Source: a virus. From it: a stretch of DNA of 37,643 bases. Below the pieces are notes generated by a model. The model was not told where the DNA came from, did not search any database, and saw only the letters and a program-made list of their open reading frames with translations. Made by a program: the position numbers and the translations under genes. The DNA lies in the IMG/VR virus record IMGVR_UViG_3300025809_000048, positions 1 through 37,643 of that record. The stretch is one strand, 5' to 3'. Shown piece after piece: positions 3,403 through 32,055 of this stretch (position 1 is the stretch's first letter; the number at the start of each line of letters is the position of its first letter).

Positions 3403-5838
3403 ATGAAAGAGGTAAATGTAAACATATCGGCTGCAGGTTTTCCTAGTCAATTTGTTTCAGATGCAGAAAAAGCAACTGAAGAATTTGGGATACAGATAGG
3501 TCAAGCAATACAGTACGAGTGGTTCAAGAGAGATGGTAATTCATGTAGATACTACGACCAATGGAGAGACTTTCATAGGTTGAGGTTATATGCAAGGGGT
3601 GAACAGTCTGTTGCAAAATATAAGACTGAGCTTGCCGTTGATGGTGACCTTTCATATTTAAACCTTGATTGGACTCCCGTACCTATCCTACCTAAGTTTG
3701 TAGACATCGTTGTTAACGGAATGTCTGACAGATTATTTAAGGTTAAGGCTTACGCTGAGGATGCAATATCACAAGAAAATAGAAGTAAGTTTCAGGAAAT
3801 GATTCAAGGACAGATGGTTGCTAAACCAATCCTTGAGACGATACAGAAGAATACAGGTATGAATCCGTTTACTATGGAGCCTGATGACTTACCTGATAAT
3901 GACGAGGAGCTTTCCTTGTACATGAACTTAAACTACAAGCCGGCTATCGAGATAGCTGAGGAGACTGCTATTGACACCTTACTCTCAGAGAATAAGTACG
4001 TAGACTTAAGGAAAAGATTTGACTATGACCTTACTGTATTAGGCATAGGTGTAGCAAAGCATGAGTTCTTACCGGGCGCAGGAGTTAAGGTTAGTTATGT
4101 AGACCCCGCGAATGTAGTGTACAGTTATACTGAAGACCCGCACTTTAAAGATTGTTTTTATTGGGGTGAGATTAAAACCGTACCTATTATTGAGTTAAGT
4201 AAGATTGACCAATCGCTCACTAATGAGGATTTTGAAAAAATCTCTCAGTACAGTCAGAGTTGGTACGACTACTACAACACAGCTCAGTTTTACGAGAATG
4301 ATATTTTTTACAAGGATACCGCTACATTAATGTACTTCAACTATAAGACTACTAAGAAGATTGTCTATAAGAAGAAGGTGTATGATAATGGTGGCTCTAA
4401 GATGATTGAGAAGGACGACCAATTTAATCCACCCGTGGAGATGATGGATGAGGGTAACTTCGAGAAGGTAGAGAAAACTATTGACGTTTGGTACGAAGGC
4501 GTTATGGTTATGGGGACGAACATCTTACTTAAGTGGGAGATGGCTGAGAACATGGTTAGACCTAAGTCTGCTAGTCAGCATGCTATCTCTAACTACGTAG
4601 CCGTAGCTCCTAGAATGTATAAAGGAAATATTGAATCTTTAGTAAGAAGGATGATTCCTTTTGCTGATTTAATTCAGATAACACACTTAAAACTTCAGCA
4701 GGTAATATCAAGAGTTGTACCTGACGGTGTTTACATTGACGCGGATGGATTAAATGAGGTAGACCTTGGAACAGGTAGTGCGTATAACCCTGAGGACGCT
4801 TTAAGATTATACTTCCAAACAGGTAGTGTGATTGGTAGAAGCTACACGCAGGATGGTGACTACAACCAAGGTAAAGTTCCTATTCAGCAGCTAACCTCAA
4901 ATTCAGGGGCTAGCAAAACGCAAATGCTTATTGGTAACTATAACCATTACTTAGGAATGATACGAGCTGTAACAGGCTTAAATGAAGCGAGAGACGGTTC
5001 TACTCCTGACCCTAATTCTTTGGTTGGAGTGCAAAAGCTAGCAGCGTTAAATTCCAACACAGCTACAAGGCACATATTAGATAGTAGTCTTTATATTTAT
5101 AAGACGCTAGCTGAAGCTTTAACGTACAGGGTTTCTGATATACTAGAGTACGCCGACTTTAAGGATGAGTTTGTTAATCAGATAGGTAAGTACAATGTAT
5201 CTATCCTAAACGAGATTAACAGTCTATACATTTATGACTTTGGAGTCTTTATTGAGGTGTCTCCTGATGAGGAAGAGAAAGCTCAGCTTGAGCAGAATAT
5301 ACAGATGGCTTTATCTAAGGGTGATATAAACTTAGAGGACGCTATTGATATTAGAGAGATAAGAAACTTAAAACTTGCTAATCAATTACTTAAGGTTAAG
5401 AGAATTAAGAAGCAAGAGCGTGACGAGAAGATGGCTATGCAGAAGCAGGCTATGACAGCTCAGCAGCAATTAAAGTCTCAAGAGATGGCGGCTCAAGTTG
5501 CTATGCAAAAGATTCAGGCGGAGAGTCAAGCTAAGATGCAGCTCAAACAAGCTGAGATAGCTTTTGAAATTGAGAAGATGAATAATGAGGCTCAGCTTAA
5601 ATCCATGCTAATGGATAAAGAGTTTAGTCTTAACATGCAGTTACGTGGTGTGTCCGAGCAAGCTTTAGACCAAAGGGAGAATCAGAGAGAGGATGCTAAG
5701 TCGGCTCGCATTAGTCAGCAGAACACAGAGCAGAGTAAATTAATTAATCAGCGCAAGAACAACCTACCGCCTCAGAACTTTGAGTCTAACGAGGATAGCT
5801 TAGATGGGTTTGATTTAGCTGAATTTAACCCAAGGTAG
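3403..5838 (+). CDS. Portal protein
   Basis: This is an 811-residue protein whose ATG follows the TerL stop without a gap. Size, position after TerL, and the conserved block QDGDYNQGKVPIQQL followed by MIRAVTGLNEARDGSTPDP (about 485-530) match portal proteins of Bacteroidota podoviruses. Portals form the dodecameric channel at the capsid vertex. The C-terminal region, about residues 665-770, is a long Gln/Met/Lys-rich coiled coil (many AMQKQ and QLKSQEMA-like heptads), like the barrel helices of long podoviral portals. The last 30 residues are Asn/Gln-rich and probably disordered. Arg codons are almost all AGA/AGG, unlike the capsid gene. Confidence 0.9.
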   Translation: MKEVNVNISAAGFPSQFVSDAEKATEEFGIQIGQAIQYEWFKRDGNSCRYYDQWRDFHRLRLYARGEQSVAKYKTELAVDGDLSYLNLDWTPVPILPKFVDIVVNGMSDRLFKVKAYAEDAISQENRSKFQEMIQGQMVAKPILETIQKNTGMNPFTMEPDDLPDNDEELSLYMNLNYKPAIEIAEETAIDTLLSENKYVDLRKRFDYDLTVLGIGVAKHEFLPGAGVKVSYVDPANVVYSYTEDPHFKDCFYWGEIKTVPIIELSKIDQSLTNEDFEKISQYSQSWYDYYNTAQFYENDIFYKDTATLMYFNYKTTKKIVYKKKVYDNGGSKMIEKDDQFNPPVEMMDEGNFEKVEKTIDVWYEGVMVMGTNILLKWEMAENMVRPKSASQHAISNYVAVAPRMYKGNIESLVRRMIPFADLIQITHLKLQQVISRVVPDGVYIDADGLNEVDLGTGSAYNPEDALRLYFQTGSVIGRSYTQDGDYNQGKVPIQQLTSNSGASKTQMLIGNYNHYLGMIRAVTGLNEARDGSTPDPNSLVGVQKLAALNSNTATRHILDSSLYIYKTLAEALTYRVSDILEYADFKDEFVNQIGKYNVSILNEINSLYIYDFGVFIEVSPDEEEKAQLEQNIQMALSKGDINLEDAIDIREIRNLKLANQLLKVKRIKKQERDEKMAMQKQAMTAQQQLKSQEMAAQVAMQKIQAESQAKMQLKQAEIAFEIEKMNNEAQLKSMLMDKEFSLNMQLRGVSEQALDQRENQREDAKSARISQQNTEQSKLINQRKNNLPPQNFESNEDSLDGFDLAEFNPR

Positions 5839-5839
5839 T

Positions 5840-5995
5840 ATGGCAACAAAAGGTAGAACAAAAAAGAATAAGATATGCTCTGCAGGAATTGCGTGGGCAA
5901 AAAGAACATTCGACAGATACCCTTCAGCTTATGCAAACATGGCTGCAAGTAAATATTGTAAAGACCCTAACTACGCTAAAAAATCTAAAAAATAA
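5840..5995 (+). CDS. Tiny basic protein, first of three between portal and scaffold
   Basis: This 51-residue frame begins one base after the portal stop and ends in a TAATG overlap with the next tiny gene. It is very basic, with K-rich ends (MATKGRTKKNK and YAKKSKK). Between them is a conserved-looking centre with C13, GIAWAKRTFDRYPSAYANMA and C40-K-D-P. The two cysteines frame a helix-like segment. I have the impression that similar small proteins occur near portals in other phages but cannot name a family. A nucleic-acid-binding or packaged role is inference from charge and position. Confidence 0.72.
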   Translation: MATKGRTKKNKICSAGIAWAKRTFDRYPSAYANMAASKYCKDPNYAKKSKK

Positions 5996-6045
5996 TGGCA
6001 GCATACGGAACTAAAAAGAAGAAGCCTAAAAAACCAAAGTACTAA
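5995..6045 (+). CDS. Micro-ORF, 16-residue Lys/Pro peptide
   Basis: ATG 5995 overlaps the upstream stop as TAATG, and its own stop (6043-6045) overlaps the next start as TAATG. The peptide is MAAYGTKKKKPKKPKY. Seven of its 16 residues are lysine, in a KKKK-P-KK-P-K pattern. Precise coupling on both sides suggests that it is translated. It could equally be only a translational bridge that carries ribosomes to the 81-residue gene. No function can be assigned. Confidence 0.5.
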   Translation: MAAYGTKKKKPKKPKY

Positions 6046-6290
6046 TGGGTGAGCTTAAAAAGTGGAGAGATGAGAAGTGGGTTCGTATAGGGACTGACGG
6101 TTCTATTAAAGGAGCGTGCGGTACTAGTAAGAATAAAAAGAACCCTGATAGATGTTTACCACTTAATAAAGCTAATAGTATGAGTAAAGCAGAAAGAGCT
6201 TCAACTGCTAAAAAGAAAAAGAAGTACGGCAGAAAAAAACAGTTTGTGTCCAATACCAAGGCAGGTAGGGTCACAAGAAAAAGCGTCTAA
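6045..6290 (+). CDS. Small Lys-rich basic protein (GTSKNKKNPDRCLP family)
   Basis: This 81-residue protein starts in a TAATG overlap. It has an N-terminal KWVRIGTDGSIKGACGTSKN block, then KKNPDRCLPLNKA, then SMSKAERASTAKKKKKYGRKK and a basic tail. About 18 residues are lysine. The pattern of a small W/C domain with a spaced GTSK-K-NPDRCLP motif followed by a Lys-rich helix recalls small basic proteins of large DNA viruses and phages. I cannot verify the family name. The two cysteines (C25 and C37) are conserved-looking. With its two tiny neighbours it forms a basic cassette between portal and scaffold, so a DNA- or prohead-associated role is plausible but inferred. Confidence 0.7.
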   Translation: MGELKKWRDEKWVRIGTDGSIKGACGTSKNKKNPDRCLPLNKANSMSKAERASTAKKKKKYGRKKQFVSNTKAGRVTRKSV

Positions 6291-6302
6291 AATATAAATA
6301 AA

Positions 6303-6317
6303 TTTTGTTTAACTTTG
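6303..6317 (+). promoter_or_regulatory. Putative promoter, Bacteroidota -7 element before the scaffold gene
   Basis: TTTTG (6303-6307) is followed after two bases by TAACTTTG (6310-6317), a match to the Bacteroidota -7 element TAnnTTTG. The ATG of the scaffold gene lies 16 bases downstream. The expected upstream -33 TTG box is not evident. It would boost scaffold and capsid transcription over the terminase/portal genes. Confidence 0.6.
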
Positions 6318-6333
6318 CATAAAATCAAATCAA

Positions 6334-7434
6334 ATGGAAATTAAAGTAAAAGCGTTAGACGGTGTAGAGCAGAAGTCTACAGCGGAGGTGGAAGAGGAAT
6401 TGCTAGAAAAGCATGAAGAGCAGTTTGAGGACTCAGCACCAACAGAAGAAACTCAGGTAATAGAAGAACCGCAAGCCGAAGAGGTTGAGCAGCAAGAGCC
6501 GCAAGGCATTACCGAGGAGCAAGTTCTTTCACATATTAAAGAAAGATACAATAAGGAGATTACATCAGTAGATGAGTTGTTTGTAGAGCGAGAAGCTCAA
6601 GAAGAACTACCTGAGGATGTAGCTGCTTATTTTAAGTATAAAAAAGAAACAGGGCGAGGCATCAGTGACTATGTTAAATTACAACAGGACTTTGATGAGG
6701 TAAACCCTGAATCTTTGCTAAGAGATTATCTTAAGGCTACGGAAACAGCTCTTGACGATGACGACATTCAGTCGTTAATGGATGAGTATTCCTACGATGC
6801 AGACTTAGATGAAGAGTCGGACATTAAGAAAATCAAGGTGGCAAAGAAAAAAGCTATTGCTAAGGCTAAGAACTACTTTACCGAGCAGCAGGAGATGTAC
6901 AAGCAACCACTTGAGTCAAGACAGGAAGCTATCTCTGAGGGCGAGAATGAGGAGTACAAAGCGTATAAGCAGTATTTGAATGAGGCGGCAACGCAGCAAG
7001 AGGAGACAAAAAGAAAGTCTGAGTGGTTCTCACAAAAGACTGACGAGGTTTTTAACAATGAGTTCAAAGGTTTTGAGTTCAATATTGGAGAAGACCAAGT
7101 CACTTTTAATCCGGGTAGTGCAGAGGAAGTAAAGAAGGCTCAGCTATCACCAATGAATTTTGTTAACAAGTATTTGGATGATAACGGACTTATGAATGAC
7201 GCTGCAGGATACCACAAAGCACTAGCCGTTGCAATGAATCCTGAGAAGTTTGCTCAATTTTTTTATGAGCAGGGTAAAGCAAATGCGACAGAGGATGTTA
7301 TGAGGAAGACTAAGAATATTAATATGACAACTCGCAACGCCCCTGCTTCAACTGTTAAATCAGGAGCACAAGTTAGGTCTTTGAGCAGTGACTCAGGTCG
7401 AGGTTTAAAGATTAGGAGTATTAAAAGAAAATAA
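6334..7434 (+). CDS. Putative scaffolding protein
   Basis: The protein has 366 residues. The N-terminal 65 are extremely acidic and low-complexity (EEP, EEV, EQQEPQ runs). They are followed by helical, coiled-coil-prone stretches (for example DIKKIKVAKKKAIAKAKNYF, about 162-181) and a basic C-terminus, GRGLKIRSIKRK. An acidic helical body with a positively charged tail that docks on capsid protein is the classic scaffold layout. The gene also sits exactly between portal and major capsid genes. Scaffolds direct prohead assembly and are then removed. There is no visible protease domain. It has its own TAnnTTTG promoter. Sequence alone cannot exclude another internal head protein. Confidence 0.72.
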   Translation: MEIKVKALDGVEQKSTAEVEEELLEKHEEQFEDSAPTEETQVIEEPQAEEVEQQEPQGITEEQVLSHIKERYNKEITSVDELFVEREAQEELPEDVAAYFKYKKETGRGISDYVKLQQDFDEVNPESLLRDYLKATETALDDDDIQSLMDEYSYDADLDEESDIKKIKVAKKKAIAKAKNYFTEQQEMYKQPLESRQEAISEGENEEYKAYKQYLNEAATQQEETKRKSEWFSQKTDEVFNNEFKGFEFNIGEDQVTFNPGSAEEVKKAQLSPMNFVNKYLDDNGLMNDAAGYHKALAVAMNPEKFAQFFYEQGKANATEDVMRKTKNINMTTRNAPASTVKSGAQVRSLSSDSGRGLKIRSIKRK

Positions 7435-13689: not shown

Positions 13690-14385
13690 ATGATAGATGA
13701 CGTTAGAACCACAGTACTTGCTGTGTTAAATAAGAATAACTACGGGTATTTATCTCCAATGGATTTTAACCTGTACGCTAAGCAAGCGCAGCTTGAAATA
13801 TTCGAGAACTTATTTTACCAATACAATACTCAGATAAACTCAGAGAACGCGCGTAGGTCAGGAACTGACTACGCTGACATATCAAAAGGAATACTTGAGG
13901 ATATAGATTTGTTTAGTGAGAGCTCAACTTTAACGAGTAATTACGGAACACACGTTTTACCTAACAATTATTACTATATAAATAGGATTACAATAAGTAT
14001 TAATAATATTAATGTTGAGGTTGAAAGAGTCTCTCAAGGCAAGATTACAGCTTTAGAAATTTCCCCACTTACAGCTCCAAGTGATGAGTTCCCTGTATAC
14101 ACTCAAGATGGAGGTGTTATAAAGATTACACCAAATTCGGGCCAAGCAACTGCAAGATATATTAGATACCCTTCAACGCCCAAGTGGACTTATACCGCAG
14201 TAGGGAGTAATGTACCTATATTTAATCCAAGTGCGGGGGATTATGAGGATTTTGAGCTACCCCTTAGCTATCAAAACGAGTTGGTGAATAAGATACTTAA
14301 GTACGCAGGGGTTGAGATTCGTGAGACCATGGTAGTTGATTTTGCTAATAAACAGGAACAACAAAATAATATAGAGCAACAATAA
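13690..14385 (+). CDS. Neck/ring structural protein 1 (putative)
   Basis: The protein has 231 residues. The N-terminus VRTTVLAVLNKNNYGYLSPM followed by FNLYAKQAQLEIFENLFYQY is a helical block of the type found in head-tail connector or ring proteins of Bacteroidota podoviruses. A beta-rich middle (NNYYYINRITIS, KITPNSGQATARYIRYPSTP) and a final helix LPLSYQNELVNKILKYAGVE follow. The C-terminus is Gln/Asn-rich (KQEQQNNIEQQ). Its stop overlaps the next start as TAATG (14383-14387), so it is made together with the second ring protein. The role is inferred from position between the fibre cluster and the tail hub plus family resemblance. Confidence 0.68.
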   Translation: MIDDVRTTVLAVLNKNNYGYLSPMDFNLYAKQAQLEIFENLFYQYNTQINSENARRSGTDYADISKGILEDIDLFSESSTLTSNYGTHVLPNNYYYINRITISINNINVEVERVSQGKITALEISPLTAPSDEFPVYTQDGGVIKITPNSGQATARYIRYPSTPKWTYTAVGSNVPIFNPSAGDYEDFELPLSYQNELVNKILKYAGVEIRETMVVDFANKQEQQNNIEQQ

Positions 14386-24582: not shown

Positions 24583-27500
24583 ATGAACGAGCAGGTATTA
24601 AAAGATTTATACGATAGAGCTGTATCTAAAGGTTATCAAAAATCTATTGAAGAGTTTAATGCGTTACTACAAAGTAATGAAAACGTATTAGCCGATAACT
24701 ACGGTTACGTGCAAGAGAAGGGATACCAAAAGTCTTTTGAAGATTTCTCTGTTTTAGTAGGAGTAAAAAAAAAAGAAGATTCGGTTTCAGTTTCTCAGCA
24801 GGTCGTTACGGATTCTACTATACCACAGCAGCAGGAAGAGGTTATTTCTTCGGAGTCTATCACACTTGAAGAACCTTCTGAATATACTGTTGTACAGGAT
24901 GCAGAACCAAGTAGACAGTATCAGGGTGATAAACCGATTTCATTAGAGAAGTCTACCGCCATTGAGAGGGTGTTCGGTAAGAACGAACTTACCGATTTGT
25001 TTGGTGACATCTATAGAGCAGGAGCAGCAGGTCAAGCCCAAGGTGGTTCTGTTGACGAGGCTTTAGAGTTGTTTGCAAAAGGCTCTGACGTTTCAGATGA
25101 TGACATCCAAGAATTTATTGCTGCACAAAAGCGCATGCAGTCTATGGGTGAGTCTGATGAGATGCGTGATTTCCAAAAAATTTATCAAGAGAATGGTGGC
25201 GGTTGGCTAGGCTTTGTAAAAGGTGTGGCTAAGAACCCTACCGTTATACCACAGTTATTTGTATCGTCAGTTAGCGCTATGGCTACCCCTGCAGTCCTTG
25301 CGGGCGCAGCAAGTGGTGCAGCGGGTGGTGCTTTAGTTGGTGGACCTGCCGGTGCTTTAATAGGTGCTATGGGTATGGCGGGTACTACACTTGAGACAGG
25401 CCTTACTTATGCTGAGCTACTGCAAGAGCAGCTTGGTGACAAGCCTATGACCACTGAGAATATAAGAGCTGTATTGGGAGACAAGGAGGCGATGGATGAG
25501 ATTCGCTTTAAAGCTGTAGGGCGTGGTCTTACAATTGGTACTATTGATGCTATCACGGGCGGTCTTGCAGGTAAGCTTACTACTAGCGTTGTAAAATCTA
25601 CAGGTCGAAAACTTTTAGGTGCTACCGCAGGTGGTACTGTTGAAGCTGTAGGTGGTTCTGCGGGTGAGGTTGCAGGTAGATTGGTTGCGGGTCAGGAGAT
25701 GGACGTTGCTGAGATTGGTTTTGAAGGTATTGCAGGTACGGCCACAGCTCCATTAACTGTGGGTTATGGTCTATACAAGGCCCCTAAGTACCACATAAAT
25801 GGTAAAGATAAGAATGCTGCAGTATCAGGGCCTGACATGGCTAGGTTTATTAGAGAGGCTAACCCTAACGATTTAATTAAGGCTGAGGTTAACATTGTTA
25901 ATGACGATGTGCTACAGGCTGAGTACACAAAGAAATACCAAGAGGCTGTAACTAAGAGAGATATATCTGAGGCTGACCCTGAGATGAACCAACCTACGCT
26001 TGACGCTATCACAGAGCTTCAGGTAGAGTTAAATAACCTTAAAGGTAAAGACAATCAGGTAGCTAAGGATAGAGCTAAAGTCATAAGAGAGGAGATAAAG
26101 AATCTCCAAGAGAACCCATTAACAGAAGAAACAGATGCCATTCAAGAGCCAAGCGCAGAGACGGTGGATGTACAAGAACAAGCCGCAGTTAGCGAAGGAG
26201 TTCGAGAAGGAGACACCGAAATCACAGCAGTTACCGAAGAGGTTGCACAAGAAGATGTACAAGAACAAGATGTCTCTCCGGAGCTACAGAGCGAGGTAGA
26301 TAAAGCTATTGCGGACGAGCAGTTAGATTTAACCGAGTTAGATGATGTGATTACTGAGGAAGTTGCACCTGAAGAGACGGTTGCTGAGGAAGTCGCACCT
26401 GAGCTTACTGAGCAAGAGGAAGTTCAGAAAATGATTGATGATGTTACTGAGGAGTACGAAGGGGAGATTGAAACCATTCAGGAAGAGATAGCTATAGAAA
26501 AAGGGAACACCAAAGCAGGTGTTGATGAGCTGAAGCAGTTAATAAAAGAAACAAAAGAAAACAAAGACCTAACCCTTACTCAAAGATTGAGTGAGTTAGA
26601 GAATTTAAGAGAGCAGTTATCTGAGTTCAAGGAAGACCAAAAAAATCAACTAGATATCTACAAAGAAGATATTAAGGAGAAGAAACGTGAGATGAGGTCT
26701 GAGATTATTTTCAATAAAAAAGAAATTAAAAGAAGTAGAAAGTTAGCTGATAAAGGTCCTGAATTTAGATTAAGAGATGAGGTAGAATCTCAGATTGACG
26801 AGTCAGAAGTAGCTAAGGTTACTGACGTTATTAACGAGATAGAGTCACCAAATAAAGATGTTAAACTAGGCTTTGAAGCCTCAAGCCCTATAGATGTTAA
26901 TGCTTTAAATGAAAGAACGGACACACCCTTAAACTCTACAACATTAGAGGTTGTAGATGGTATCCCAACTATATTTAACATAACAGACCAACTTACTACA
27001 GGTGATACTGTTAACCCTGAAACGGGCAACACTATTGACAACCTTAAGGGTGCGGTAGGATTTAACGGAACTAAGGGGCATGAGAACTTTGCTTGGGCTA
27101 ACGTAGACACTAAAGAGGCTGACACTATAATCTCAAAAGCTAAGCAGGTATACGAAGATAACAAGTCTTTGTTTGACGATTGGTGGGCTGCAAACCCTGA
27201 GTATAATGGATTAGTGCCAATGAATATTGTTAAGATGGGTGAGAGCTCTGTAGTTTCCAACGAGGCTACGTTTAGAGTTTTGTCTGATAATATAAAATCA
27301 CTACCCTCTAAGAATAAAAAGGCGGCTCTTAAAGCATTAAAGAGTGAGTTGGATTTAGAGATTAAAAAATTAAGCTCAATAGAATCTCCTTCTAAGTCGC
27401 AGTTAAAAACCCTAGGGCTTTACCGTAGAATTAAAAATCAGGTATCTAATTCAGGGGCTACGTCTATTGACCAAGTTTTATCTAGTGAGTTTGCTAAGAA

Positions 27501-30500
27501 AATTTCACTACCCGCTAGGACTTTGCTTATGGGAAAGGTTACATCTAGTACCCCTAATACTCCGGGAGCTAAATCTAAAACTCCGTCAGCATCAAAGAAG
27601 CCTGTCGTGTTAGCTTTATTGAAAGGTCAACCTAGCGAGGCTAAAACAAAATTAAACCTCGGTGTAATAACTGACACAATTACAGACCCTGAATTAAGAA
27701 ACGTGCCTATTGGTAGTGTAATTTCATTGGTAGGTGTTGACGTTTTAAACCCTGAGGTGCTAGAGACTACGCATCCAAACTATCCTTACGGCGTGAAGGG
27801 TAAATCAATTGGTGTACTAGAAAATCCTGTGCCTATGGAAAAAGCTTATCCTAAAGCGTATGAGAAAAGCTTTAAGGTACTTATTCAAAAGGAGTCTAAG
27901 GGAGCTAAAGCGTCTGCGCCTAGCATACTAAGTCAGCAAGCAGGTGTTGGTATAGGTATACCTTCTCTAGATTATGTGGGTGCTGTAACTAGCTCTAATA
28001 CTGACAATGTAAATAAGCTTGTTTCTTTTTTAAGAAAAGCGTTCCCAAGCGTAACCCTGTCTGTAGACTCAAAAGAGTTTAACGAGGTTATGAACTCGGA
28101 AGGGGTTAAGAAGTATTTAAAAGGCGGGGAAGTTGTTTACGGTGTAACGGTTAATGGTGACGTTTATGTTAACCCTGATATTCACAACTCAGAGTCGGCT
28201 ATATTTAATACAGCTATACATGAGATGGGTCACGTATGGACTGACTTTCTTCAGACAACTGAAAAAGGGAGAGAGATATACAATAAAGGTGTTGAGTTAG
28301 TAAAGGAAACAGATGTATACAAGAAGCAACTTGAGGTATTCAATGGTGATGTAGCTAAAGCAGCCAATGAAGCCTTAGCAATTCTTATCGGTAACAAGGG
28401 TGAGACTATAACTCAAGGAGCCTTAAAGAGTGAGTTTACTGAGTGGTTACTTGGTTTATGGAACTACATAAAACAGGAGTTTAAACTATCCAAAGACTTA
28501 ACGGCTGAAGATGTTCAGGGCTTAACTCTTGACCAATTTCTAGGAACTGCTCTAGCTGACATACTTAGTGGTGAGGAAATTAAAACCACAAAAAAACAGA
28601 GAGCTGAGATGAAGTCTTCGGCTGCATTTAAAAAGGCAGACGCTTCTAGTAGGGGTACGAAGCTATCTAACTTCAAGGTAAAATCATTCGTTGAGAAGGC
28701 TCGTGGTTTGGGTTACTCAGACGCAGCTATTAGTGCATTGCTTACACAGAGGGGCGTAAAGCCTGAGTTGGTTGCTGAGGTTGTTGCTACTGAGAAGACC
28801 GCAGCACCAAAGCCTAAGCTTACAGAAGAGTTAGTGCCGGGGTATGATAGATTAGCTAATGAAGTAGAGGGTATTATTAAAAAATCAAAGAAACGTGGTG
28901 TTAAGTTTAACGACATCATGGACAACGTAGCTGAATATGTTAAAGGTTCTCGTGTTTATGAAACAGCTACCGATGTAGTTCGAGAAAAATTACTGAGAGA
29001 TATACGTAAGCAGTTTGGTTTAAAGGAGAAGACAGCTCCTACACCAAGTCGTTTGCTCGGTGCTATAAGAGATGTTAAGAAGGTAACACTGAAGGAAAGT
29101 GAGCTGTTAAAGATTAGGTTGCAAGAGGCTGTTAAGGCTGCGAAGGATGCTAAGAATTTTATAGCTGATACGCAGCAAGCTTTATCCGCTGAGGTTGACG
29201 CTTTAATTAAGAAAGGTACTCTTACTCAAAGGCAAGCATCTGCTATATTGAAAAAGTTTGCTAAGACTGACGTGACTAAAGCTAAGTCTGTAGACGCTTT
29301 CACTGAGTATGTAGCTAAAGTATTCAACGACTCAGAAGGAAAGTACAAGAAGGGTGTTGTAAAAGATATTCTAAAGTTTGTTACCGAAAAAGCTAAGAAA
29401 GCTATTACTGACAGTAATAAAGCTAGAGGTAAAGGGTTAGATGCACAAGGACAGCAGTTTTTTGCTGCAGCTAAAAGAGTTCTTAAGAGAATCCTTGAGG
29501 GCGACTTTGACGCTGAATCAATAGAGAAGAAGTTCTTCCCTGACATTGATGAGGTGTTATCTAAGGAAGGAAAGCTTACGGTTAAAGAGCAAAACCAACT
29601 TGACGCTTACATTGCTTTTGAATCATTCAAAGGCGTAGAAGACATGAGTGTTCAAGAAGTTGAAGCACTATTAAAAGACTTAAAGGAAGCTCGTTCTGAA
29701 TCAATATCTAGACTAAAAGAAAAACTTGAGGCTGAGAAGGCTGAGGTGAAGGCTCTTAGAGATGAGGCTGACTCCAATATACAACAAGGATACTCAGCTC
29801 TTTACAATGAGGACGGTTCACCACTGACTGAAGAGCAGCTTAGAGCTCGTCAGAATGAAAGATATAATGCGTTGATGAGTGGTCAGCTAGGTAAAGCTTT
29901 CAAGCTTTATGTGTCTGAGTTTCCTTTAACCAAGCCGGGTAAATTCTTAACAGGTATAGCTAATAACTTAAAGCACTTAGGTACTCTAACAAATGGATTG
30001 GACAAGGTTGGTAAGTTCTTTACTAAGAATGTATACGAATCCCTTAACGCCATGGAGAGTTTGTATGCTAAAGGATTACAGAGTACTCGTACTAAGATGG
30101 ATGAGATAGCTAGCTCCATAGATGGTGTTAAGAACTATAAAGACATTCAAAGTAAACTAGCTTCAGGAGCTCACAAGATTGATGGTATCACCACGGGTGA
30201 GGGTAAGTCCTTAGGAACTAATCTTTTTAACGCAGACCAATTGATGAGAGTGTACGCTCTTAGTAAGAACGATGTTCAAAGAGAGAAGCTTAAAAAGCAA
30301 GGGTTTACTGATGAGAAGTTAAAGCAAATTGAAAGCATCCTTGGTAAGGATGTTGTAGAATTTACGGACAAGGTGGTAGAGTATTTAAGTACGGAGTACT
30401 TTGAGCAAACCAATGATGTATACTCTGATGTAAATAACGTAAACTTAAGCTACATAGAGAACTACTTTCCTACTCAGACAATAAAAACTAAGGTTGACTC

Positions 30501-32055
30501 TAAACTTTTAGATGAAGGAGATTTCAACGGTGTGTTTAACGCTCAAGTAGCTCCTGCATTAAAGGAGAGGGTTGATTTGACAGGTGACGTATCTATACTT
30601 AACGCTGACTTTACAACAACCTTAGAGAATCACTTTGAAACTATAGAGCGATACAAGTCTTACGCTGAAGGGGTTAAGAAGTTAAACTCTATATTTAAGT
30701 TTAAGTCGGTTGATACACTACTAGAACAAACAGGTTTAGGTAAAGTGGTTAGGAATTCTGTTAACTACGCAGTGAATCCTAATGGTGGGCAGCAGGCAAT
30801 ACAGCCTACCATTATAGATAAGCTTATGACGAAGTACACAGGCTTTGCTCTAGCCTTCAAGTTAGCTCAGGTTGTAAAACAGTCAACGTCTTTTGTCAAC
30901 GCGTTTGAAGACTACTCATATAGAGGCAAAGGTAAAAGTAAAGTACCGGGGTTAGACCTTGTAATGTTTATGATGGAGGCTGCTTATACAGCGGCAACCC
31001 TTCCAATACAGATTCAGAAAGCGTACAACATGTCCCCTATGTTTAAGGAGCGTGTTAAAAAAGGCTTAGAGGGAGATGTGTTTGGTTTAGAGACAGGCTC
31101 TGTTACCTTCAAGCCAATCGGTAAATCTAACACCATGTGGGGTAAAGCTGTTAGAGCTTTCAAAACAGGTGCAGGTTCACCTACAGTGCTTGGGGATATA
31201 CTTGGTGTGATGGGTTATATGATTAACTATAACCGAGACATTGCAAATGGTATGAGCGAGGCTGACGCTTTGAAGAAGTTTGAGAACTATAACGCTACTC
31301 AGCAGTCTCGTAGAGCGACTGAGAAGATTCCTTTACAGATGAATAGTAACTCCTTAGTTAGAGGGTTTACAATGTTTGGTAGCACACTATTCTTGCAGAT
31401 GAACAAAGTTATGCAGGGCTTTACAAACGTAATGAGCTCAGCCTCTAAGGGCAGTATACCTACAGCTAAAGATACTAGAGCTATTATATTAAACCTTGGT
31501 GTAGCCAACGTGATGTTTGCTCTTGCAGCGAACTTAGCGAAGTTTATTAAGGGTGATGATGAGGATAGAGATGAGGCTCTACTTAGAATGAAGGACGCTA
31601 TGATGGGTTTAAATCTTATCTATCAAGTGCCTTACTTTGGAGCAGCTATAGAGTCTGCGGTAAATAAATCAAGAGGTATTAATAGACCTGCCGACGTAGC
31701 TGTAAACCCATTCAACTCTATAATGAGGAAGGTTAAGAAGTTGTCTAAGGACGATAAGCCTATCGAGGCCGCTACACGTGTTGCTGTGGAACTTACTATA
31801 GGAGCTCAGGTTGACCCGTTTATTGGTTTGTTTAACGGATTCACTGAAGGGTTTGATGAGGATGTAATGTATGATGTTCTTGGTGTGAGTTCTTCTTACA
31901 GGCCCGCAAAACAAACTAAGAGCAAGAAGGGCATAAGTAAATCCGCTTTAAAGAAAGCCAACCCTAGGGCTTACCAAAGATTATATGGCCCGGGCTCAGC
32001 TTACTATAAGCAACAGCAAAGAATTAAGGAGCTGAAGAAAAGGCAGGGTAAATAA
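24583..32055 (+). CDS. Giant multidomain (polyvalent) ejection protein with zinc-metalloprotease motif
   Basis: The protein has 2490 residues, 20 percent of the window. It starts with a duplicated motif, SKGYQKSIEEF and EKGYQKSFEDF (about 15-53). Then come a Gly/Ala-rich hydrophobic segment (about 219-262, able to enter membrane), an acidic linker with EEVAPE repeats, and a charged coiled coil (about 605-725). A zincin motif, IHEMGHVW (H1213, E1214, H1217), has a possible third ligand E1263 in NEALAIL. Long Lys/Ala-rich helices follow. The conserved C-terminal third contains ENYFP (1959-1963), TGFALAFKLAQVVKQSTSFV (about 2086-2105), a hydrophobic helix near 2300-2324 and a basic tail. This mosaic resembles large polyvalent proteins injected with phage DNA. 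No RNA-polymerase motif was seen. Confidence 0.82.
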   Translation: MNEQVLKDLYDRAVSKGYQKSIEEFNALLQSNENVLADNYGYVQEKGYQKSFEDFSVLVGVKKKEDSVSVSQQVVTDSTIPQQQEEVISSESITLEEPSEYTVVQDAEPSRQYQGDKPISLEKSTAIERVFGKNELTDLFGDIYRAGAAGQAQGGSVDEALELFAKGSDVSDDDIQEFIAAQKRMQSMGESDEMRDFQKIYQENGGGWLGFVKGVAKNPTVIPQLFVSSVSAMATPAVLAGAASGAAGGALVGGPAGALIGAMGMAGTTLETGLTYAELLQEQLGDKPMTTENIRAVLGDKEAMDEIRFKAVGRGLTIGTIDAITGGLAGKLTTSVVKSTGRKLLGATAGGTVEAVGGSAGEVAGRLVAGQEMDVAEIGFEGIAGTATAPLTVGYGLYKAPKYHINGKDKNAAVSGPDMARFIREANPNDLIKAEVNIVNDDVLQAEYTKKYQEAVTKRDISEADPEMNQPTLDAITELQVELNNLKGKDNQVAKDRAKVIREEIKNLQENPLTEETDAIQEPSAETVDVQEQAAVSEGVREGDTEITAVTEEVAQEDVQEQDVSPELQSEVDKAIADEQLDLTELDDVITEEVAPEETVAEEVAPELTEQEEVQKMIDDVTEEYEGEIETIQEEIAIEKGNTKAGVDELKQLIKETKENKDLTLTQRLSELENLREQLSEFKEDQKNQLDIYKEDIKEKKREMRSEIIFNKKEIKRSRKLADKGPEFRLRDEVESQIDESEVAKVTDVINEIESPNKDVKLGFEASSPIDVNALNERTDTPLNSTTLEVVDGIPTIFNITDQLTTGDTVNPETGNTIDNLKGAVGFNGTKGHENFAWANVDTKEADTIISKAKQVYEDNKSLFDDWWAANPEYNGLVPMNIVKMGESSVVSNEATFRVLSDNIKSLPSKNKKAALKALKSELDLEIKKLSSIESPSKSQLKTLGLYRRIKNQVSNSGATSIDQVLSSEFAKKISLPARTLLMGKVTSSTPNTPGAKSKTPSASKKPVVLALLKGQPSEAKTKLNLGVITDTITDPELRNVPIGSVISLVGVDVLNPEVLETTHPNYPYGVKGKSIGVLENPVPMEKAYPKAYEKSFKVLIQKESKGAKASAPSILSQQAGVGIGIPSLDYVGAVTSSNTDNVNKLVSFLRKAFPSVTLSVDSKEFNEVMNSEGVKKYLKGGEVVYGVTVNGDVYVNPDIHNSESAIFNTAIHEMGHVWTDFLQTTEKGREIYNKGVELVKETDVYKKQLEVFNGDVAKAANEALAILIGNKGETITQGALKSEFTEWLLGLWNYIKQEFKLSKDLTAEDVQGLTLDQFLGTALADILSGEEIKTTKKQRAEMKSSAAFKKADASSRGTKLSNFKVKSFVEKARGLGYSDAAISALLTQRGVKPELVAEVVATEKTAAPKPKLTEELVPGYDRLANEVEGIIKKSKKRGVKFNDIMDNVAEYVKGSRVYETATDVVREKLLRDIRKQFGLKEKTAPTPSRLLGAIRDVKKVTLKESELLKIRLQEAVKAAKDAKNFIADTQQALSAEVDALIKKGTLTQRQASAILKKFAKTDVTKAKSVDAFTEYVAKVFNDSEGKYKKGVVKDILKFVTEKAKKAITDSNKARGKGLDAQGQQFFAAAKRVLKRILEGDFDAESIEKKFFPDIDEVLSKEGKLTVKEQNQLDAYIAFESFKGVEDMSVQEVEALLKDLKEARSESISRLKEKLEAEKAEVKALRDEADSNIQQGYSALYNEDGSPLTEEQLRARQNERYNALMSGQLGKAFKLYVSEFPLTKPGKFLTGIANNLKHLGTLTNGLDKVGKFFTKNVYESLNAMESLYAKGLQSTRTKMDEIASSIDGVKNYKDIQSKLASGAHKIDGITTGEGKSLGTNLFNADQLMRVYALSKNDVQREKLKKQGFTDEKLKQIESILGKDVVEFTDKVVEYLSTEYFEQTNDVYSDVNNVNLSYIENYFPTQTIKTKVDSKLLDEGDFNGVFNAQVAPALKERVDLTGDVSILNADFTTTLENHFETIERYKSYAEGVKKLNSIFKFKSVDTLLEQTGLGKVVRNSVNYAVNPNGGQQAIQPTIIDKLMTKYTGFALAFKLAQVVKQSTSFVNAFEDYSYRGKGKSKVPGLDLVMFMMEAAYTAATLPIQIQKAYNMSPMFKERVKKGLEGDVFGLETGSVTFKPIGKSNTMWGKAVRAFKTGAGSPTVLGDILGVMGYMINYNRDIANGMSEADALKKFENYNATQQSRRATEKIPLQMNSNSLVRGFTMFGSTLFLQMNKVMQGFTNVMSSASKGSIPTAKDTRAIILNLGVANVMFALAANLAKFIKGDDEDRDEALLRMKDAMMGLNLIYQVPYFGAAIESAVNKSRGINRPADVAVNPFNSIMRKVKKLSKDDKPIEAATRVAVELTIGAQVDPFIGLFNGFTEGFDEDVMYDVLGVSSSYRPAKQTKSKKGISKSALKKANPRAYQRLYGPGSAYYKQQQRIKELKKRQGK

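Follow-up and report, generated by a model that had tools for sequence, protein, structure and literature searches.

An optional cassette of small basic genes with 1-nt seams in flavophage-like viral contigs and SAR11 phages, and its 16-codon ORF in one lineage

Why would a virus carry three tiny, lysine-rich ORFs with interlocking stops and starts between its portal gene and a scaffold-like gene, and is the middle one, with 16 codons, a gene at all? We studied these ORFs, which we call A, B, and C, in the viral record (37,643 bases) of a marine phage; "the window" refers to this whole stretch of DNA. We propose that A, B, and C form an optional cassette that can relocate, that A and C are bound for the virion, that the genes are translated by reinitiation at their seams, and that B is a shrunken gene that serves as a bridge. 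For this reading as a whole, we put the probability at roughly one half. The arrangement is new; its parts (small phage genes of unknown function, and translational coupling) are known. In the accessible portions of the literature on DUF6321, DUF5872, the virion proteins of pelagiphages and cyanophages, and TAATG reinitiation, we found no description of such a cassette. We found no papers on DUF6321, on small virion proteins of pelagiphages, or on lysine-rich small ORFs by the portal; DUF5872 appears in a gene table for an algal virus, in the accessible part of that source.

Genes A and C and their optional presence

The left border of the cassette is the portal gene (3403-5838, + strand; phrog_6547, portal, E = 1.3e-143), which ends with a TAG at 5836-5838. 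Gene A (5840-5995, +; ATG at 5840, TAA at 5993-5995) encodes a basic protein of 51 amino acids with two cysteines. ORF B (5995-6045, +; ATG at 5995, TAA at 6043-6045) encodes 16 amino acids, MAAYGTKKKKPKKPKY. Gene C (6045-6290, +; ATG at 6045, TAA at 6288-6290) encodes a basic protein of 81 amino acids with two invariant cysteines. The A/B seam (5993-5997, +) reads TAATG, with one A common to the stop and the start, and the B/C seam (6043-6047, +) is also TAATG. The ratios of K+R to D+E are 14/2 for A, 7/0 for B, and 25/6 for C, and the isoelectric points are 10.2, 10.3, and 10.7. The first-pass annotation had described basic ORFs of 51, 16, and 81 residues joined by TAATG at these two places, and its coordinates are exact. 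It had also remarked that the 16-residue ORF lies under normal gene-caller limits, and this is borne out: B is the only one of the three that does.

On the right, a 43-bp stretch (6291-6333, +) leads to the scaffold-like gene (6334-7434, +), which matches phrog_16786 (E = 8.2e-18; function unknown in PHROGs); the name scaffold reflects where it lies, after the portal gene and before the capsid genes. The 43-base stretch includes TAACTTTG at 6310-6317, which we take to be similar to the -7 box of Bacteroidota. Close relatives have this stretch whether or not they carry the cassette. The portal matches 87 phage records, and 86 of these are named after Flavobacterium, Cellulophaga, Tenacibaculum, or Maribacter, so the portal points to flavobacterial hosts. 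A search of genome contigs with C gave ten matches, all to contigs of metagenome-assembled genomes named after scattered taxa, so we do not infer a host from C. Farther upstream, before the terminase, the window encodes a GroES-like co-chaperonin (320-895, +; phrog_13932, E = 7.8e-23). In Maribacter phage Panino and Elemovirus elemoF, too, the terminase comes after an annotated GroES gene.

Both A and C match known protein families over most of the domain: residues 10-51 of A align to positions 2-43 of the 50 in phrog_27331 (E = 2.7e-21), and residues 1-79 of C align to positions 1-80 of the 81 in phrog_23735 (E = 2.6e-27). Neither of these PHROGs has a function, a cassette, a B slot, or seams attached to it, and Pfam gave no family for either protein at E up to 1. 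Scans of viral contigs found at least 593 relatives of A and at least 591 of C; our tallies use the best 80 relatives of each and so describe the nearest relatives, and related contigs are not independent of each other. The relatives of A are in viral contigs and SAR11 phages. An alignment of 41 A sequences, all closely related, has 28 invariant columns and one of 46 closely related C sequences has 31, and in each case both cysteines are among them. The core of A is KIC..GIAWAKRTFDRYPSAYANMAASKYCKDPNYAK.

Among 14 full-length blocks of the window type (6 of them distinct), A has 13 variable sites, with 11 synonymous and 2 codons changed, and C has 36, with 27 synonymous and 6 codons changed. 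B has a single variable site, which is synonymous. (This count leaves out L240, which is cut off, and L246, which has a different upstream gene.) Judging from these comparisons, there is no reasonable doubt that both A and C are genuine genes. Such tiny genes are under-annotated, as two other genomes illustrate: A is unannotated in 023Pt_psg01, and the ORF annotated at its place in C75C1 is in a different frame.

The predicted structures add little about function. AlphaFold models A as three short helices (pLDDT 68.1) and C as a hairpin plus two helices (mean pLDDT 71.9), and neither model is of high confidence. When we searched the viral models of BFVD with the fold of C (Foldseek), the best match was a protein of an uncultured phage (E = 3.5e-5), and proteins with DUF5872 or DUF6321, as well as a "Virion protein" of S-SCSM1, matched at E = 0.09-0.29. 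The fold of C has no relatives among solved structures in the PDB (best E = 6.5). Searches for solved structures by sequence gave nothing convincing: the best E values were 0.0084 and 0.019, both to designed proteins, and 0.42 in another search.

We compared the window to the best 80 of at least 599 portal loci, which gives 81 places, 72 of them readable. Fifteen of the 81 have intact A and C between the portal and the scaffold gene, 2 have broken versions, 53 are empty, 2 have another insert, and 9 are unreadable; these are metagenomic contigs, so misassembly could account for some of the forms that look broken or empty. In three relatives with names (Maribacter phage Panino, Elemovirus elemoF, and Podoviridae sp. 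ctfjg026, which is an assembly), 41-69 bases separate the portal from the next gene. In L168, a 10-base footprint of the end of a C gene follows the portal's stop codon, and the empty sites of L172 and L173 join at that stop codon. As it is absent from many close relatives, the cassette is dispensable for head assembly. (A different basic gene, of 90 amino acids, occupies the same slot after the portal's stop codon in L233 and L234.)

We also searched whole contigs with the A and C profiles. These 15 contigs were picked by hand and may be fragments. Twelve of them were portal-anchored contigs whose slot does not hold the pair: neither gene occurs in 10, and the other two (G003, behind L193, and G007, behind L221) have both, at a distance of about 11 kb from the portal. 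The remaining 3 contigs were chosen because they carry C, and all 3 have A as well. Thus A and C are genes that are present in some close relatives and absent from others, that lie at other positions in some genomes, and that occur together: the A-C set is an optional, movable cassette, and not a portal accessory. The first-pass annotation had suggested portal-associated factors, and we reject this, as 53 of the 72 readable slots are empty, the portal and the scaffold gene are adjacent in the three named relatives, and two contigs have A and C far from the portal. We interpret the cassette as an optional and relocatable group of small genes in the structural region, in which A and C, as small, basic, cysteine-containing proteins of a single domain each, would be the stable core pair.

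Relatives in marine phages and a possible virion role

In four SAR11 phages, A and C have the same order as in the window and overlap by 1 nt: HTVC106P gp26/gp25, HTVC027P gp49/gp50, HTVC023P gp51/gp52, and HTVC203P gp24/gp23. All eight of these genes match phrog_27331 or phrog_23735, and the C proteins are 41-46% identical to a composite C query. The Pelagibacter phage HTVC027P resembles the window in having a chain of consecutive small genes with 1-nt overlaps that includes A and C. It differs in its alphaproteobacterial host, in having no B between A and C, and in having more genes in the chain. Specifically, gp46-gp52 are joined by six consecutive 1-nt overlaps, with A as gp49, C as gp50, and a DUF6321 protein as gp52 (E = 1.6e-13). 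By eye, gp51 looks like a member of the MIDKKKL family (see below), and it has no significant match. In a Prochlorococcus phage, A alone lies beside the scaffold gene.

Cyanophages seem to have a C-like domain within larger proteins. A C profile that includes the SAR11 members matches S-SCSM1 ORF29 (E = 7.3e-6) and P-SSM3 PRAG_00075 (E = 7.2e-5) with scores above all 5,000 shuffles. Without the SAR11 members, ORF29 matches at E = 0.0053 and the P-SSM3 protein is not among the top hits. With the phrog_23735 profile, the E values for the two cyanophage proteins are 0.042 and 0.004; at the limit of that search (E up to 1), the profile has matches in 6 of 14 control genomes as well. In both proteins, the C-like domain is in the same chain as a DUF6321 domain, which is further on. 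DUF6321 (PF19846) is a domain of its own in these fused proteins and a gene of its own in HTVC027P (gp52), and it does not match the window's C. Nor does DUF5872 (PF19197) match the window's C at E up to 1. HTVC027P gp50 scores 21 bits against DUF5872, and gp63 of the Roseobacter phage CRP-7 scores 27.3 bits as compared to the cut-off of 27.5 (it matches phrog_23735 at E = 0.013). These scores are consistent with C being a distant relative of DUF5872-type domains. We dropped gp70 of CRP-345 as a relative of C (E = 8).

The phrog_727-type proteins of cyanophages, with 345 and 517 amino acids, have their domains fused, whereas the window's C stands alone and has no Pfam family. Neighboring genes in smaller phages match separate stretches of phrog_727: HTVC027P gp50 aligns to 131-182 (E = 1.4e-4) and gp52 to 361-430 (E = 2.2e-15), and CRP-7 gp64 aligns to 264-307 (E = 3.5e-10) and gp65 to 385-434 (E = 0.0024). 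Thus, what are separate neighboring genes in phages of podovirus size are fused in cyanophages. In CRP-7, three adjacent small basic genes (gp65, gp64, and gp63; 1221-1867 of L386) are counterparts of the DUF6321-like, PSAYA, and C-like parts of the cyanophage proteins.

For A, a link to the fused proteins is tentative. The PSAYA motif of A, as an HMM, did not score above shuffles in S-SCSM1 ORF29. A profile comparison of A to the PSAYA stretch of ORF29 gave a probability of 30%, with a score above those of 40 column shuffles. That stretch of ORF29 turns up in 366 phage records, and the label in two of these, S-E7 and S-B43, is "structural protein".

Where do the A and C proteins act? The first-pass annotation had offered basic peptides packaged with the DNA, and this is plausible for A and C; what we have for it concerns C, whose distant fused relatives are labelled as virion or structural proteins. 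In particular, the record for S-SCSM1 labels the product of ORF29 as "virion protein". Taken together, these relationships lead us to favor the virion as the site of action of C and, through its linkage with C, of A as well; the link consists of distant homology to C and of labels in records. Mass spectrometry of S-SCSM1 virions purified by CsCl identified 45 proteins, and the accessible text of PMC9602691 does not mention ORF29 by name. If this link holds, A and C would most likely end up in the virion, beside the DNA or in the ejected cargo. The cassette would presumably be expressed late. As to the timing of HTVC027P genes, the accessible text of PMC12753301 does not mention gp49-gp52 by name.

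Instead, A, C, and their relatives might be cytoplasmic factors of infection that happen to lie among structural genes and that take over the host or bind nucleic acids or ribosomes. Optional presence and a changing position are typical of accessory genes, and in HTVC106P and HTVC203P, A and C are the last genes, or nearly so, of a run that faces regulator or replication genes. However, a C-like domain occurs in a protein that is labelled as a virion protein, and in the window, C75C1, HTVC027P, 023Pt_psg01, and P-SCSP2, A and/or C have genes of the head, the scaffold, or the portal position nearby. We consider the cytoplasmic role to be possible, if somewhat unlikely.

Two other kinds of small genes accompany A and C. 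Several A/C cassettes (such as L089, L092, L096, and L101) include a family of basic neighbors of about 96 amino acids (MADKSKMKCN...ARYWSCK). A member with 95 amino acids matches phrog_7595 (1.7e-12) and phrog_220 (2.1e-14), the latter annotated as "minor head protein and DNA pilot", which suggests that other cassette genes, too, are fused to virion proteins. In L091, L092, and L102, a 26-residue ORF downstream of A has a CxC...CDGSH pattern (MKYQPMCQCGNTSNPEGHCDGSHLNK and close variants). This recalls iron-sulfur motifs, and the match to zf-CDGSH in Pfam is at just E = 0.28, below the cut-off.

The slot between A and C and its TAATG seams

The 16-mer MAAYGTKKKKPKKPKY is intact in the window and in 15 further contigs from a scan whose pattern already prescribed the first TAATG and 14 of the 16 residues. 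A second scan left the letters of B free (TAATG, 40-70 bases, and then TAATG with the start of C) and returned 26 contigs. Fifteen of these are the same contigs with the 16-mer, and none of the other 11 has a variant of it: two (L277 and L281) have a peptide of another family, described below, and in the remaining 9 the upstream TAATG lies inside or outside another gene. C is directly downstream of the 16-mer each time. A is directly upstream, via TAATG, in 14 of the 15 contigs; in the exception (L246), another gene (108 residues in one reading) lies between A and the 16-mer, with A further upstream. The first-pass annotation had asked if the order and frame of the 16-mer are conserved, and said that a frame that was not conserved would count against it. 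The frame is intact in all 16 places where we found it. The exact 16-mer is limited to one tight lineage, with the 15 contigs of the pattern scans and 8 of the 15 intact portal-anchored places.

In the other 7 of those 15 places, the slot between A and C holds a 44-amino-acid gene (L167, L174, and L022), nothing (L166, L169, and L171), or three other small genes (L170). In L385, which is a sister contig of the window, the slot holds a 55-amino-acid gene with TAATG on both sides that ends with ...NASWNKSTKKKKPKKPKY; it has no match in PHROGs. B, with 51 bases, has the same final 36 bases as this gene. In L163, where A and C are broken, a startless remnant of the slot gene has the identical 36 bases. 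So, the content of the slot turns over, and the 3' part of B is the same as that of a longer gene. Because the last 36 bases of B coincide with the end of the L385 gene, B is most likely a shortened version of a longer slot gene that kept its frame and that still links A to C. The first five codons of B would have a source other than the L385 slot gene.

We then asked how C is joined to whatever precedes it. From 201 profile hits to C, we dropped identical local sequences and those with under 90 bases upstream or without a nearby start codon, which left 141 distinct places. C's start codon overlaps an upstream stop codon by 1 nt in 99 of these (TAATG in 94, TGATG in 3, and TAGTG in 2) and does not in the other 42. 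By upstream family, the overlap is present in 31/50 places for A, 19/24 for MPTVK, 8/14 for MIDKKKL, 5/5 for the YGKPCT peptides, 3/3 for MAFKIH, 2/2 for SKLSKKQ, 1/4 for the MSKMNKK type, and 21/39 for other genes. (These sum to 90 of 141, nine fewer than 99. Part of the difference comes from six window-type places that were counted under A even though B lies between, and from a few places where a different ORF was taken as the upstream one.) The seam is thus retained behind at least seven upstream families, and, in the contigs whose slots are described above, C's ATG is locked by 1 nt to the upstream stop codon whether the slot holds 16, 55, or 44 amino acids or nothing.

Short overlaps of this kind couple translation and are enriched among the subunits of complexes, according to the accessible part of PMC10666635. 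As in the termination-reinitiation pairs with a -1 nt overlap that are described there, the neighboring genes here share a TAATG. Unlike in those pairs, the upstream ORF has just 16 codons, and our case is known from sequence. With their short stop/start overlaps, the genes of the cassette share this feature of translationally coupled pairs. Among the roles that the first-pass annotation had suggested, a re-initiation bridge fits best, given the overlap at 99 of the 141 C places whatever fills the slot, and B is a candidate for coupling.

We propose that A, B, and C are on one transcript and that they would be translated by termination and reinitiation at the TAATG seams. B would be a slot with turnover of its content between A and C. 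In the lineage of the window, the slot gene may have shrunk to 16 codons while it stayed open and locked to both of its neighbors. Ribosomes that leave A would be handed on to C via B, so that B would act as a bridge rather than as a peptide.

The main alternative for B is that it is a functional micropeptide. We identified a family of peptides of 23-27 amino acids with the core YG..PCT.KV (the pattern is MA.YGKPCTQKVK..K), which is defined in this analysis, at eleven distinct places; L277 and L281 add another. They have TAATG on both sides in A-B-C order in L081, after an A-like gene and before C in L046, and between A and some other gene in L252, L254, and L256. Others have different neighbors, and not all of them are between A and C. 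Among the five distinct members with 25 amino acids, pS is 0.43 and pN is 0.038, which is as expected for a functional peptide, with pN biased downwards because the search motif fixes several residues. Like some of these peptides, the window's B follows A, precedes C, and has TAATG on both sides, and it shares MA.YG (as MAAYG) and a lysine-rich tail with them. However, we do not group B with the YGKPCT peptides because it lacks the PCT.KV core that defines them. Also, its last 36 nt match a 55-amino-acid slot gene, and the slot has something else or nothing in 7 of 15 intact portal-anchored places. A micropeptide like these is rather unlikely for the window's B.

A more speculative idea, which we consider doubtful, is that the lysine-rich tail and the TAATGG junction are the joint of a shuffling system, in which small basic cargo genes of marine phages would be swapped, lost, or shortened at the seams. 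If so, the joint would keep every new neighbor translationally coupled, and even an ORF of just 16 codons would persist mainly as a ribosome bridge between cargo genes.

Finally, B could be a chance ORF with meaningless TAATG junctions. When the insert was shuffled 20,000 times with its dinucleotides preserved, 176 shuffles had a double interlock of this size, and so did 61 of 20,000 49-mers drawn at random from the window, so it is uncommon by chance alone; 1-nt overlaps also occur elsewhere in the window (at 14385 and 36505, for example). We consider this reading very improbable, given that the frame is intact in all the places with the 16-mer and that the seam before C is kept with at least seven upstream families.

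In this way, tiny ORFs that would be called "hypothetical" become a defined and testable module in flavophage-like contigs and SAR11 phages. This raises two questions: does the particle contain A and C, and can a 16-codon ORF have no other task than to bring ribosomes to the next gene?

A nested gene elsewhere in the window

The window also contains a basic ORF of 54 amino acids (MPFKSQAQRRWMYKN... / MPFKSQAQRRWMYKNKPQLAKEFEKETP...) at 26135-26299 (+), which is in another frame inside a host ORF of 2,490 amino acids (24583-32055). We compared it to the best 80 of at least 487 loci. Including the window, it is likewise nested in an open frame of at least 200 amino acids in 62 of the 81 places, and it is not nested in the other 19. 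Across 51 distinct nested stretches, the mean pairwise identity of the small frame is 0.762, as compared to 0.539 expected at the same DNA divergence, and that of the host frame is 0.561 as compared to 0.562 expected; because the small protein was used to gather these loci, the figure for the small frame is inflated, and the openness of the host frame is not affected. This segment of the host frame changes as if it were without constraint, while the small frame is conserved. We find this nested gene to be more striking than the cassette.
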